DNA of 64,000 nt, from NCBI RefSeq assembly GCF_000519045.1, contig NZ_KI912532.1:1674001-1738000 (forward strand). Reading direction: 5' to 3'. This DNA comes from Dechloromonas agitata is5. GTDB taxonomy: Bacteria > Pseudomonadota > Gammaproteobacteria > Burkholderiales > Rhodocyclaceae. Under the pieces are notes generated by a model, which searched no databases, had not been told where the DNA came from, and saw nothing but the letters and a program-made list of their open reading frames with translations. Shown here piece by piece: positions 30,631-35,389 of this stretch (its first letter is position 1; each line of letters opens with the position of its first letter). Both the position numbers and the translations under genes were made by a program.

Positions 30631-31332
30631 ATGTCAGCCAAAGATTACGTCATCGCACCGAGCATCCTGTCCGCCAACTTCGCCAAACTGGGCGAGGAAG
30701 TGGCCAACGTCATTGCCTCGGGAGCCGACTGGATTCACTTTGACGTGATGGACAACCATTATGTTCCCAACCTGACCATCGGCCCACTGGTTTGCGAGGC
30801 CATCCGGCCGTGCACGACGGCACCGATCGACGTGCATCTGATGGTCAAGCCGGTCGATCGCATCATTCCCGATTTCGTGAAAGCCGGGGCCAACATCATC
30901 ACCTTCCACCCGGAGGCCTCCGAGCACATCGACCGCAGCCTGTCGCTGATTCGCGACGGCGGCTGCCAGGCCGGCCTGGTCTTCAACCCGGCTACCCCGC
31001 TCGACCACATGGACTACGTCATGGACAAGCTCGACCTCATCCTGCTGATGAGCGTCAACCCGGGTTTCGGCGGTCAGAAATTCATCCCCGGCACGTTGGC
31101 CAAGGCGAAGCAGGCCCGCGCCAAGCTCGATGCCTACGAGCGCGAAACCGGCCGCCGCATCCGCCTTGAAATTGATGGTGGCGTGAACACTGCCAACATC
31201 GCCGAAATCGCCCGTGCCGGCATCGATGCCTTTGTCGCCGGTTCGGCCGTCTATGGGGCCGGCAAGGACAGCGATCCGCACCGCTACGATTCGATCATTG
31301 GTGCGCTGCGCAGCGAACTGGCCAAGGTCTGA
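30631..31332 (+). CDS. rpe: Ribulose-phosphate 3-epimerase
   Basis: 233 residues from the ATG at 30631, beginning with the hallmark [20 protein letters not shown]-barrel metal ligands are visible: H in [16 protein letters not shown] (both D and H), DVHLMV, and the C-terminal LEIDGGVN and VAGSAVYG segments. It interconverts ribulose-5-phosphate and xylulose-5-phosphate in the pentose phosphate and Calvin pathways. Forms an operon with gph, which starts one base after its stop, and probably trpE. Confidence 0.97.
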
Positions 31333-31333
31333 G

Positions 31334-32005
31334 ATGCGTTTCCAATCGGTCACCTTCGACCTTGACGGCACCCTGCTCGACACCATCGCCGACCTGGCCG
31401 AAGCCTGCCGCCTGATGCTCGACGAGATCGGCGCCCCGCAGCGCACCCCGGCCGAGGTGCACAGCTTCGTCGGCAAGGGCATGGCGGTACTGGTTGAGCG
31501 TTGCCTGACCCACGACAAGCCGCCGACGGCCGAGGCGCTGCAGGCCGCCATCGAATCCTTCAAGCGTCATTACACCGAGGTCAACGGTCGTTTCACGCTG
31601 GTGTATCCGGGTGTGCTCGACGGCCTGAAGGCGTGGCAAGCCAGCGGCGCGAAAATGGGCGTCGTGACCAACAAGCCCGGCATGTTTACCGAGGCGCTGC
31701 TCGACCGCATGGGCATGAGCGATTTCTTCGACGTAATCGTTTCCGGTGATACCACCGCCCACAAGAAACCGCATCCCGAGCCCATCCTGCACGCCTGCCG
31801 CCTGTTCGGCGTGCGGCCCGACCGCAATCTGCACATCGGTGATTCCGAAAACGACATCCACGCCGCCCATGCCGCCGGTTGCCCGGCCTTTTGCGTGCCC
31901 TACGGCTACAACGAAGGCAAGCCGGTGGACAGTGCCGATTGCGATGCGCTAGTATCCGATCTGCTTGCTGCCTACCAGCAAGCCCTCACCTTCAAGACCT
32001 CCTGA
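31334..32005 (+). CDS. gph: Phosphoglycolate phosphatase
   Basis: 223 residues from the ATG at 31334. HAD superfamily: nucleophile motif TFDLDGTLLDT (about 7-17), motif II VVTNKPG (about 113), motif III lysine in HKKPHPEP and motif IV IGDSENDIHAAHAAG (about 170). It dephosphorylates 2-phosphoglycolate, formed during DNA repair or by oxygenase side reactions. The rpe-gph-trpE order is usual in betaproteobacteria. The Trp-rich leader peptide starts four bases past its stop codon. Confidence 0.95.
   Translation: MRFQSVTFDLDGTLLDTIADLAEACRLMLDEIGAPQRTPAEVHSFVGKGMAVLVERCLTHDKPPTAEALQAAIESFKRHYTEVNGRFTLVYPGVLDGLKAWQASGAKMGVVTNKPGMFTEALLDRMGMSDFFDVIVSGDTTAHKKPHPEPILHACRLFGVRPDRNLHIGDSENDIHAAHAAGCPAFCVPYGYNEGKPVDSADCDALVSDLLAAYQQALTFKTS
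31926..31955 (+). promoter_or_regulatory. Candidate promoter for the trp leader and trpE, inside gph
   Basis: TGGACA (31926-31931), 18-bp spacer, TAGTAT (31950-31955). A start near 31962 would give a leader transcript of about 180 bases before trpE. It lies within coding sequence, so chance is a real alternative. Confidence 0.35.
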
Positions 32006-32009
32006 CGAA

Positions 32010-32066
32010 ATGACCCCCTTGCATCACTGGAACATCGAGCTTCGTTGGCGCCGCTGGCGTCCGTAA
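32010..32066 (+). CDS. trpL: Predicted trp leader peptide (TrpL-type) upstream of trpE
   Basis: 18 codons giving MTPLHHWNIELRWRRWRP and a TAA stop. Three of 18 residues are Trp (positions 7, 13, 16), far above the roughly 1 percent expected. It sits between gph and trpE, exactly where a ribosome-stalling attenuator peptide is expected, and its start is four bases after the gph stop, so it could be translated by re-initiation as no clear Shine-Dalgarno is present. Overlapping RNA pairings downstream support the regulatory reading. Not experimentally known to me. Confidence 0.7.
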   Translation: MTPLHHWNIELRWRRWRP

Positions 32067-32104
32067 TCGCTCGTCCGTTCGGCGCCCACGTTGAGACAGG
32101 GCGC
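32047..32104 (+). promoter_or_regulatory. Candidate trp attenuator: mutually exclusive RNA stems
   Basis: GGCGCCG (32047-32053, within the Trp codons) can pair with CGGCGCC (32080-32086), while GCGCCC (32082-32087) can instead pair with GGGCGC (32099-32104). The two pairings compete for the same bases, the layout of 2:3 antiterminator and 3:4 terminator. No T-run follows the second stem, so it may act through Rho or on translation rather than as a standard intrinsic terminator. Confidence 0.45.
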
Positions 32105-32144
32105 ATGCAGTGTGCAAAAACAACCGTCATTTTCGAGGCTTCCC

Positions 32145-33620
32145 ATGACTGAAACCGAATTCAACGCGCTGGCCGCGCAAGGCTACAACCGTATCCCCGT
32201 TTCGCTGGAGACGTTTGCCGACCTCGACACCCCGCTGTCGATCTACATGAAACTGGCCAACGGCCCCTACACCTACCTGCTCGAATCCGTGCAGGGCGGC
32301 GAGCGTTTCGGCCGCTACTCCATCATCGGCCTGGCTGCCCAGACCCGCATTGTGGTCAATGGCCACCAGGTGCTGGTGCTGACCGGGAACCGCATCGCTG
32401 AGCGCGAGGACGATACCAATCCGCTCGACTTCATCGGCAAGTACATGCAGCGCTTCCGTGCCCCGCCGGCCAGCGGCCTGCCGCGTTTCTGCGGTGGTCT
32501 GGTCGGCTGTTTCGGCTACGACACCGTGCGCTATGTCGAAACCCGCTTGACCCGTACGAACAAGCCGGACGAAATCGGCACGCCGGACATCGGCCTGCTG
32601 CTCTCCGAAGAATTGGCTGTCGTCGACAACCTGTCCGGCAAGCTGACCCTGATCGTCTACGCCGAGCCCGGCTTCCCCGGCGCCTACCAGAAGGCGCGTT
32701 CCCGCCTGAAGGAGTTGCTCGGCAAGCTGCGCACGCCAGTGACTTTGCCGGCCGAACAGCCAGTGCATTCCGAGCCGGCGGTATCCACCTTCGGCGAGGC
32801 TGCCTTCAAGCAGGCCGTGCTCAAGGCCAAGCGCTACATCACCGAGGGTGACATCATGCAGGTCGTGCTGTCGCAACGGATGACCAAACCGTTCATGGCC
32901 AGCCCGCTGGCCCTGTACCGCACCCTGCGCAGCCTGAATCCGTCGCCTTACATGTTCTATTTCGACTTCGAGGACTACCATGTCGTCGGCGCCTCGCCGG
33001 AGATCCTGGTACGCCTGGAGGGCGAGCGGGTCACCGTGCGACCGATTGCCGGTACCCGCAAACGCGGTGCTTCGCCGGAAGAGGATGCCGCACTGGCCGT
33101 CGAACTGCTGGCCGATGAGAAGGAACGCGCCGAGCACACCCAGTTGCTCGATCTCGGTCGTAACGACTGCGGCCGCGTCGCCAAGGTCGGTTCGGTCAAG
33201 GTCACCGAAAACATGATCGTCGAGCGTTACTCGCACGTGATGCACATCGTCTCGAACGTCGAAGGCAGGCTGCAGCCCGGTCTCGATGCCCTCGACGTGC
33301 TGCGCGCCACCTTCCCGGCCGGTACCGTGTCCGGCGCCCCCAAGGTGCGGGCCATGGAAATCATCGACGAACTGGAGCCGGTCAAGCGCGGCATCTACGC
33401 CGGCTCGGTCGGCTACCTCAGTTTCAACGGCGACATGGACGTCGCCATCGCCATCCGCACCGGCGTCATCAAGGACAAGAAACTGCATGTCCAGGCCGGG
33501 GCCGGCATCGTCGCGGATTCGAATCCCGAATCGGAATGGCAGGAAACCCAGAACAAGGCCCGGGCCGTGCTACGCGCCGCCGAGCTGGCCGAACAAGGTC
33601 TCGATACCCGCTTCAACTGA
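32145..33620 (+). CDS. trpE: Anthranilate synthase component I
   Basis: 491 residues from the ATG at 32145 with GAGG upstream. The N-terminal [18 protein letters not shown] contains the LLES-type tryptophan feedback-binding element, and the chorismate-binding C-terminal half shows [27 protein letters not shown] and [11 protein letters not shown], then [19 protein letters not shown] and [15 protein letters not shown]. It forms anthranilate from chorismate with ammonia delivered by TrpG. The partner trpG is 1.2 kb downstream, separated by a reverse-strand gene. Confidence 0.97.
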
Positions 33621-33691: not shown

Positions 33692-34702
33692 TCAGTCTGG
33701 CTGGTGCCAGGCTTCGTCGGCAGCCAGTTCCGGCATCTGGCGCGCCGAGTAGGAACGGACGGTGCCCGACTCGAAATAGATGCGGGCGAGCAGCTCGGAC
33801 AGCACGCCGGTGGTGATGAAATGTACGCCGGCGATCAGTGTGCCGATGCCGACAATGAGCAGCGGCCGGCCGCCGATCGACTCGCCCAGTCCGAACTTCA
33901 CCCAGGCCAGCCAGGCCAGCACCAGGCCGGAAATGGCGGTCAGCGCCAGGCCGATGCTGCCGAAGAAATGGCCGGGGCGGGCACGGAAGCGCATGAAGAA
34001 ATAAACCGCGATCAGGTCGAGGATGACACGGAAGGTGCGCGAAATACCGTACTTGGAAACGCCAGCCGTGCGGGCGTGGTGCGTCGTCGGCTCCTCGGCG
34101 ATGCGGCGCGGCGTCGTCACGGTCGCCATCCAGGCCGGGATGAAGCGGTGCATTTCACCGTACAGGCGGACGCGCTTGATCACGTCGCCGCGATAGGCCT
34201 TCAGGCTGCAGCCGTAGTCGCGCAGCTTGACACCGGTCATGCGGGCGATCAGGCGGTTGGCGATCTTCGACGGAATCTTGCGCAGGAACAGGCCGTCCTG
34301 GCGGTTCTGCCGCCAGCCGGCGACCAGGTCGAGGTCTTCATTGAGCAGGCGGGCGACCATCCGCGGAATGTCCACTGGGTCGTTCTGCAGGTCGCCGTCC
34401 ATGGTCACGATCACGTCGCCGCGCGCTGCATCCAGGCCAGCCTGCATGGCGGCGGTCTGCTTGAAGTTGCGGGTCAGTTCGACGACGCGGACATGCGGCC
34501 CATATTCGCGCGCACACTGCATGGCGCGATCCACCGTCGCATCGCTGCTGCCGTCGTCGACCAGCACCAGTTCCCACGGATGCTGGTAACCGGCCAGCGC
34601 CTCATGCACCCGCTTGACCAGCGGCGCGATGTTGTCTTCCTCGTTGTAGAACGGGACGACGATGGAGAGGCTGTGCGGCGGAATGGAGAGAGCGGCGGTC
34701 AT
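33692..34702 (-). CDS. Family 2 glycosyltransferase with C-terminal membrane helices (GtrB/DPM1/ArnC-like)
   Basis: 336 residues from the ATG complement at 34702. The GT2 domain is clear: SIVVPFYNEEDNIAPLV (about 13-29), VLVDDGSSDAT (about 48-58), VTMDGDLQNDP with the metal-binding DxD-like D-G-D, and the late RDYGCSLKAYRGDV. Two transmembrane helices (about 240-260 and 275-300) place it at the inner membrane. Such enzymes transfer sugars from nucleotide donors to polyprenyl phosphate. It lies between trpE and trpG on the other strand. The exact sugar is unknown; an ATG nine codons upstream is a second possible start. Confidence 0.85.
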   Translation of the reverse strand: MTAALSIPPHSLSIVVPFYNEEDNIAPLVKRVHEALAGYQHPWELVLVDDGSSDATVDRAMQCAREYGPHVRVVELTRNFKQTAAMQAGLDAARGDVIVTMDGDLQNDPVDIPRMVARLLNEDLDLVAGWRQNRQDGLFLRKIPSKIANRLIARMTGVKLRDYGCSLKAYRGDVIKRVRLYGEMHRFIPAWMATVTTPRRIAEEPTTHHARTAGVSKYGISRTFRVILDLIAVYFFMRFRARPGHFFGSIGLALTAISGLVLAWLAWVKFGLGESIGGRPLLIVGIGTLIAGVHFITTGVLSELLARIYFESGTVRSYSARQMPELAADEAWHQPD

Positions 34703-34776
34703 AAACGGGTCCGGCGGGAAAGGGCGCATTTTAGCGTGAAAGCATGCTCCTTCGCCTGCCCGGCGTGTCGCCGAGG

Positions 34777-34782
34777 TAGAAT
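34777..34782 (+). promoter_or_regulatory. Candidate -10 element for trpGDC
   Basis: TAGAAT at 34777-34782, 34 bases before the trpG ATG, in the divergent gap with the glycosyltransferase. No clear -35 is seen. A promoter is required here because the upstream gene runs the other way. Confidence 0.4.
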
Positions 34783-34816
34783 TCATGACTAACCAAACAG
34801 GCAAGGAATCAACAGC

Positions 34817-35389
34817 ATGCTGCTGATGATCGATAATTACGACAGCTTCACCTACAACATCGTCCAGTATTTCGGCGAGCTCGGGCAGGACGTCCGGGTG
34901 TTCCGCAACGATGCGATCACGCTGGCCGAGATCGCCCGGCTCAAGCCCGATTATCTGGTCATTTCTCCCGGCCCCTGCGCGCCGGCCCAGGCCGGTATCT
35001 CGCTTGCCGCGATCAAGGAATTCGCCGGCAAGATTCCGTTGCTCGGCGTCTGTCTCGGCCACCAGTCCATCGGCGAAGCCTTCGGCGGCAAGATCGTGCA
35101 CGCCAAGCAGCTGATGCACGGCAAGGTGTCGCCAGTGCATCACAAGGATATCGGCGTCTTCAAGGGCTTGCCCAACCCGCTGACTTGCACGCGCTACCAC
35201 TCGCTGGCCATCGAGCGCGAATCGCTGCCCGATTGCCTGGAGATCACCGCCTGGACGGACGATGGCGAGATCATGGGCGTTCGCCACAAGACGCTGGCGG
35301 TCGAGGGCGTCCAGTTTCACCCCGAATCCATCCTGACCGAGCGCGGTCACGACCTGTTGAAGAATTTCCTCGAGGAACACCAGAAATGA
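34817..35389 (+). CDS. trpG: Anthranilate synthase glutamine amidotransferase component II
   Basis: 190 residues. Class I glutamine amidotransferase with the catalytic triad: C79 in [16 protein letters not shown], His and Glu in [11 protein letters not shown] near the C-terminus. The opening [19 protein letters not shown] is characteristic of TrpG/PabA. It releases ammonia from glutamine for TrpE; in many proteobacteria one subunit serves both TrpE and PabB, which may apply here. Its stop overlaps the trpD start by four bases. Confidence 0.97.

Follow-up and report, generated by a model that had tools for sequence, protein, structure and literature searches.

Ribosome-mediated control has its textbook case in tryptophan attenuation, which is described as a transcription switch. 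Olekhnovich and Gussin are said to have found in 2001 that trpE and trpGDC of Pseudomonas putida, a proteobacterium, are regulated by attenuation. In translational attenuators of the ermC type, a drug-induced stall on the leader frees the Shine-Dalgarno (SD) sequence of the downstream gene, and no cognate amino-acid codons are involved. According to the available part of its description, the LEU element before leuA in Actinobacteria has a leader with Leu codons, and the Leu-codon run pairs with the SD inside a pseudoknot (PMC1262725). The Corynebacterium ilvB-II motif, in the accessible portion of its report (PMC10272879), is a conserved upstream open reading frame (uORF) with cognate codons before a biosynthetic gene, with an intrinsic terminator at its end. 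The available part of a survey (PMC5343134) reports TrpR in gammaproteobacterial groups and its absence from other proteobacterial classes.

The trpE locus of Dechloromonas agitata is5 lies in the window, by which we mean the whole 64,000-nucleotide stretch of DNA analyzed. With the E. coli trp attenuator (trpL) it shares a short Trp-codon leader peptide before trpE, a putative stalled-ribosome Trp sensor, and predicted competing RNA pairings; it differs in that the window has no U-run terminator and in that the main pairing joins the leader start to the trpE SD (here, the clamp). Nor does 31500-32600 of the window match the covariance model of the Rfam Trp leader (E values up to 5). As in ermC, stalling on the leader would free the SD of the next gene, whereas ermC has a drug stall, no cognate codons, and another pairing layout. 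The likeness to the LEU element (PMC1262725) lies in a cognate-codon leader, a base stem that joins leader sequence and the SD of the gene, and, within the available description, the lack of a terminator; however, there the Leu codons pair with the SD, whereas at trpE this partner is the sequence surrounding the leader's own start codon; the gene and the amino acid are also different. The Trp codon run does not pair with the trpE SD, the SD-pairing arm (31994-32001) being upstream of the leader start and the Trp region giving z = 1.0 within groups. Judging from the available text, the LEU element is the nearest described layout. The ilvB-II motif (PMC10272879) is alike in its cognate-codon uORF and differs in its intrinsic terminator.

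According to both the computed pairing and coevolution, the SD of the controlled gene is sequestered by upstream sequence, as in a translational attenuator. The arrangement appears to combine the working of a translational attenuator with the classical trp sensor, without the classical terminator or an Rfam match. No description of a clamp between a leader start and the trpE SD was found in the open-licence literature searched. The same Trp sensor appears to act on translation here, in a large group with no TrpR-family match among the 31 genomes searched; this offers a testable answer to how bacteria without such a match sense Trp, and it shows a way to couple leader and gene in which one start site hides the other.

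The trpE leader and its surroundings

The first-pass annotation had described an 18-codon frame with Trp codons at positions 7, 13, and 16, starting 4 bases past the gph stop, and the sequence confirms all of it: the gph TGA and the leader ATG are separated by CGAA, and the Trp codons occupy 32028-32030, 32046-32048, and 32055-32057. In a clade alignment of 31 of the 44 non-redundant loci of the window's leader-motif group (the other 13, hard to align, were excluded beforehand), the three Trp codons are invariant in 31/31 sequences, so the expectation of Trp-codon conservation in relatives was borne out. Over leader codons 2 to 18 of this alignment, entropy is 0.41, 0.59, and 0.91 at codon positions 1, 2, and 3; variability is highest at the third position, the pattern of a translated frame. 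The 18-codon Trp leader frame is present and under selection.

trpE was found in 193/199 genomes of the window's family. The family loci (L001 to L210) comprise 30 from the trpE search, 80 named loci from a scan of the genome collection, and 100 further stretches, some organisms being represented twice. With a leader defined as a short frame carrying two or more Trp codons close to its end, 184 of the 210 received a leader call before trpE; two of these calls (L025 and L096) lie inside gph and were later dropped as false, and redundancy filtering left 147 and then 145 family loci for analysis. Leader endings vary by clade (WRxWRP, EAWPWR, WPxGH, and others), while Trp near the stop is retained. 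Outside the family, the trpE search matched 112/120 genomes of the order and 109/143 of the class; a part of these matches, 86 order loci and 29 class loci, was taken, and a looser rule, which admits false calls, gave leaders in 53/86 and 15/29, respectively. The conserved Trp codons and the presence of a Trp leader in the family support the attenuation logic that the first reading had proposed.

The promoter-like site in the 3' end of gph (Table 1) is the probable origin of the leader transcript, and in 89 of the 145 family loci such a site lies no more than 130 nt before the leader, against 2.6 expected from shuffles. Re-initiation from gph, previously suggested as a source of leader translation, is not required: no gph could be detected upstream in 20 of the 184 leader loci, and 54 have their nearest leader start more than 10 nt past the gph stop (a leader start at -4 to +10 nt from that stop exists in 97/184). 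Because TGGACA-TAnnnT is retained in 13 of the 20 gph-less loci, with rpe upstream instead in 9, the leader is independent of gph.

The lack of a clear ribosome site for the leader, also pointed out earlier, holds both in the window, where no SD-like sequence is seen by eye, and in the family, where 132/145 leader starts are below threshold. Only 13/145 reach the level of a strong SD, fewer than random 17-mers do (24/145); at the trpE site, 132/145 loci reach it. CCTC or CTCC occurs in the leader 5' part in 100/145 loci, compared with 50 in an equal stretch upstream. We attribute the missing SD to the complementarity of the leader start region to the trpE SD; with no SD at its start, translation of the leader is a prediction.

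In the window, an opposite-strand glycosyltransferase-like open reading frame sits between trpE and trpGDC (34600-34900; trpG ATG at 34817), and no Trp-rich leader before trpG was seen by eye in 34600-34816.

Table 1. Features of the trpE leader region (coordinates within the window)
Feature	Positions	Strand	Remarks
gph	31334..32005	+	Upstream gene; contains the promoter-like site; stop TGA 32003-32005
Promoter-like TGGACA-18-TAGTAT	31926..31955	+	In the 3' end of gph; sole such site in 31300-32300
Clamp helix P1a, 5' arm (AAGaCCTC)	31994..32001	+	Before the leader start codon; complements the trpE SD; pair probabilities 0.63-0.92
Clamp helix P1b, 5' arm	32007..32014	+	Covers the leader start codon; pair probabilities 0.44-0.97
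Leader frame MTPLHHWNIELRWRRWRP plus stop	32010..32066	+	18 codons; ATG 32010, TAA 32064-32066
Clamp helix P2, 5' arm	32019..32029	+	Leader codons 4-7, reaching into the first Trp codon
First stem, 32047-53 with 32080-86	32047..32086	+	Alternative to the second-stem hairpin
Second-stem hairpin, 32082-85 with 32101-04	32082..32104	+	Conserved; compatible with the clamp
Clamp helix P2, 3' arm	32108..32117	+	Folding and RNAalifold
Clamp helix P1b, 3' arm	32126..32133	+	5' of the trpE SD
Clamp helix P1a, 3' arm (GAGGCTT)	32135..32141	+	Holds the trpE SD GAGG, 32135-32138
trpE	32145..33620	+	Gene under control

Pairing of the leader start with the trpE ribosome-binding site

When a window transcript begun just past the promoter-like site is folded, three stacked helices, P1a, P1b, and P2, join the leader start region (31994-32029) to a segment (32108-32141) made up of the trpE ribosome-binding site and the bases preceding it. 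RNAalifold recovered the cores of all three unprompted from the 31-sequence clade alignment, that of P1a being CCTC-GAGG, and at two of the three pairs of the P2 helix compensatory changes are present in 4 and 1 of the 31 sequences. No covariation is seen for P1a and P1b in the window's own clade, where the arms are too conserved. The minimum free energy of 32003-32150 alone is unremarkable (z = -1.07), and the window's own pairing is not outstanding, since 40% and 57% of swaps score equally high under two scorings.

Two competing stems of 6 to 7 bp had initially been proposed, formed by GGCGCCG (32047-32053) and GGGCGC (32099-32104) with parts of CGGCGCCC (32080-32087). These stretches are located and complementary as described; as the main device, however, coevolution favors pairing of the leader start with the trpE ribosome-binding site instead. 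The anticipated covariation holds for the second stem (two of five pairs changed on both sides; 3/500 shuffles) and fails for the first (163/500 shuffles), which is 96.8% paired in the clade alignment without covariation support of its own. The 3' arm of the second stem lies within an insertion in the window and is misaligned in the clade alignment. The Trp region and the region between the leader stop and the trpE site, the class to which the first stem belongs, coevolve within the family (z = 5.9) and weakly outside it (z = 2.0). The main structure is the longer-range pairing of the leader start with the trpE ribosome-binding site, missed at first; this pairing is well supported.

The coevolution score was that of the best helix joining the trpE start region to the leader 5' part, taken as the 80 nt that precede the first Trp codon, and the null was obtained by permuting arms within leader-motif groups. 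(Duplex folding with large interior loops was too permissive and was replaced by helix scoring with permutations.) Family loci score 23.9 with their own arms and 21.5 with permuted ones (z = 8.0, n = 145), and 36 divergent family representatives still give z = 4.7. Among the family controls, the 80 nt further upstream against the trpE site give z = 0.9, the leader 5' part against the middle z = 0.6, and the Trp region against the trpE site z = 1.0 within groups, or 2.5 (p = 0.0074) in a global permutation. In other families of the order and class, own arms score 27.2 and permuted arms 19.3 (z = 16, n = 65 non-redundant loci), the upstream control giving z = 0.3 and three further controls z = 2.0 to 2.5. 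Uninterrupted Watson-Crick runs of at least 9 occur in 16/145 family loci and 10/68 other loci, compared with 1.7% and 0.6% of swaps, respectively. The SD is paired with the leader 5' part at a probability above 0.5 in 128 of 147 loci, a number that falls to 51 when that part is shuffled and to 91 when it is swapped. Striking clamps outside the family are those of L239 (27 bp), L221 (13 bp), L226, L230, and L218 and, in the class, L300, L319, and L304.

The clamp arms are wholly different between families, with no sequence shared across clades, and still fall on the SD and the leader start. By sequence comparison, many related bacteria have the clamp arrangement, built from sequences of their own. 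A weaker test, in which arms were swapped between sister pairs, gave own above swapped in 42 of 69 informative pairs (p = 0.046); three of four subgroups were not significant, and the part upstream of the SD gave 34 vs 33. G-U pairs were not preferred over A-C pairs in the clamp helices, the cores showing a slight excess (8 vs 3 and 5 vs 2) in what is an uninformative test. The sister-pair result, the missing G-U preference, the modest energy and swap rank of the window sequence, and the lack of a leader SD all weigh against a translational attenuator. Suspicion of translational control had been voiced from the beginning, and the coevolving pairing of the leader start with the trpE ribosome-binding site supports it.

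The clamp of L239 (about 309-436) is a perfect 27-bp inverted repeat of CACAGAG-like units. It gives an Rfam match to mir-999 on both strands, below the gathering threshold, which is probably due to chance.

Proposed mode of action and rival explanations

A conserved Trp-rich leader, a coevolving helix on the trpE SD, the absence of a conserved terminator, and an upstream promoter-like site together make a ribosome-mediated translational attenuator of trpE the reading that we consider fairly probable. When Trp is present, the ribosome would clear the leader, and the freed start region would pair with the newly transcribed trpE SD, leaving trpE untranslated. When charged tRNA-Trp is scarce, ribosomes would stall at the leader Trp codons; the stalled ribosome and the queue behind it would occupy the leader start region, so that the clamp could not close and trpE would be translated. 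Rho may contribute by releasing untranslated trpE mRNA early. The leader start region thus probably hides the trpE ribosome-binding site until Trp runs short. The clamp pairing itself is well supported; from it, with the help of modeling, we infer the switch, that is, leader translation, stalling, the queue, and the direction of control.

In the model, the mean cost of opening trpE from -18 to +1 over the 145 loci is 11.9 kcal/mol when the leader is free and 7.3 kcal/mol with a ribosome at the leader start (a drop of more than 2 in 110/145 loci); ribosomes at both the leader start and the last Trp codon give 7.0 kcal/mol. Placed only at the last Trp codon, a ribosome changes next to nothing (11.7 vs 11.9), and one at the first Trp codon gives 10.5. 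Because the clamp stays shut when the last Trp codon holds a single ribosome, a queue reaching back to the leader start would be needed. In the static fold of the window, the trpE SD likewise remains paired with a ribosome at Trp7; given this and the small effect of ribosomes on the Trp codons, the switch would rest on queuing or on kinetics.

Two rivals place the control on transcription. Rho-dependent attenuation, in which the clamp would bar trpE ribosomes or expose a Rho-loading stretch, is unlikely, even though a conserved intrinsic terminator is absent and untranslated mRNA is a general target of Rho, since the clamp arms lie on the trpE SD, where control of initiation would be expected; both may act together. 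Classical attenuation by terminator and antiterminator, as in E. coli trp, is improbable. It can draw on the Trp-rich leader and the coevolution of the Trp region with the post-stop region (z = 5.9), as well as on terminator-like sites in 18/145 family and 5/68 other loci, found by a loose rule without a shuffled control; under the same rule, 127/145 have no site. For the window a classical terminator was ruled out: on the + strand nothing terminator-like follows the leader, in agreement with the absence of a T-run noted in the first-pass annotation, and the single + strand match in the window scan is at 31874, inside gph. Rfam leader families gave no match in 31500-32600 of the window (E values up to 5); in 20 relatives, the Rfam Trp leader gave no hit at E values up to 1, and no other Rfam match was convincing.

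Plain translational coupling, by which the leader would merely open the trpE site, through re-initiation from gph or from its own start and without sensing Trp, would suit the leader starts without SD and the 97 of 184 loci with a start at -4 to +10 nt from the gph stop; it leaves the conserved Trp codons unexplained and is at odds with the 20 leader loci without detectable gph and the 54 that start more than 10 nt past the gph stop, and we give it little credence. Trp-induced arrest of the nascent leader peptide at the stop codon would be analogous to TnaC, which likewise ends in Arg-Pro. The last leader residues are indeed conserved within clades (WRxWRP, EAWPWR, WPxGH), but these motifs vary between clades, and a modeled ribosome at the leader stop leaves the clamp unchanged (11.7 vs 11.9 kcal/mol), which makes such arrest very improbable. 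Least probable of all is an inverted repeat acting at the DNA level as a repressor binding site: G-U pairs are not preferred to A-C pairs, as this would allow, yet the arms take on entirely different sequences from one family to the next and still cover the SD and the leader start, unlike an operator, and none of 31 genomes, the window's own among them, gave a TrpR-family match in a search whose E. coli control was positive. The TrpR-family model also matches the B. subtilis control genome and is therefore not specific to proteobacterial TrpR.

Returning to the translational attenuator, we are evenly divided on a broader proposal, namely, that such attenuators form a type spread over the order and, in part, the taxonomic class. 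Its members would use the leader initiation region as an anti-SD strand against trpE, with a single switch for leader and gene, and ribosome queues behind starved Trp codons, by occupying the leader start, would report on Trp; where a TrpR-family repressor is absent, this would be the chief known control of trpE that responds to Trp.

Variation among the relatives

Among the 28 family loci without a usable leader, which include one sequence twice (L019 and L087), trpE abuts or overlaps gph within 19 nt in 11. This adjoining of trpE and gph where the leader is missing argues for loss of leader and clamp as a unit. In another set of loci (L018, L021, L101 to L104, L106, and L107), several of them titled Accumulibacter, an intergenic gap of 110 to 158 nt is present, no Trp leader was called, and the longest clamp run is 6 to 9 bp; control of trpE may have changed in these relatives. 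L189 has too few Trp codons for the leader rule and yet shows a 12-bp run between TTTCCTCAGCGA and the trpE start region, possibly a reduced form of the leader and clamp arrangement. In L089, an assembled metagenome, the leader frame extends past the usual stop, apparently through a small deletion, and the clamp is intact.

Loci of different families (L241, L243, L251, L304, L312, L314, and others) share the nucleotide string TGGCGATGG at their Trp codons, a stretch that is more alike across them than the remainder of the leader. In several loci (e.g., L304, L310, and L326), this stretch can pair with CCATC immediately beyond the stop of the leader. The CGA codon for Arg that separates the Trp codons may be important.
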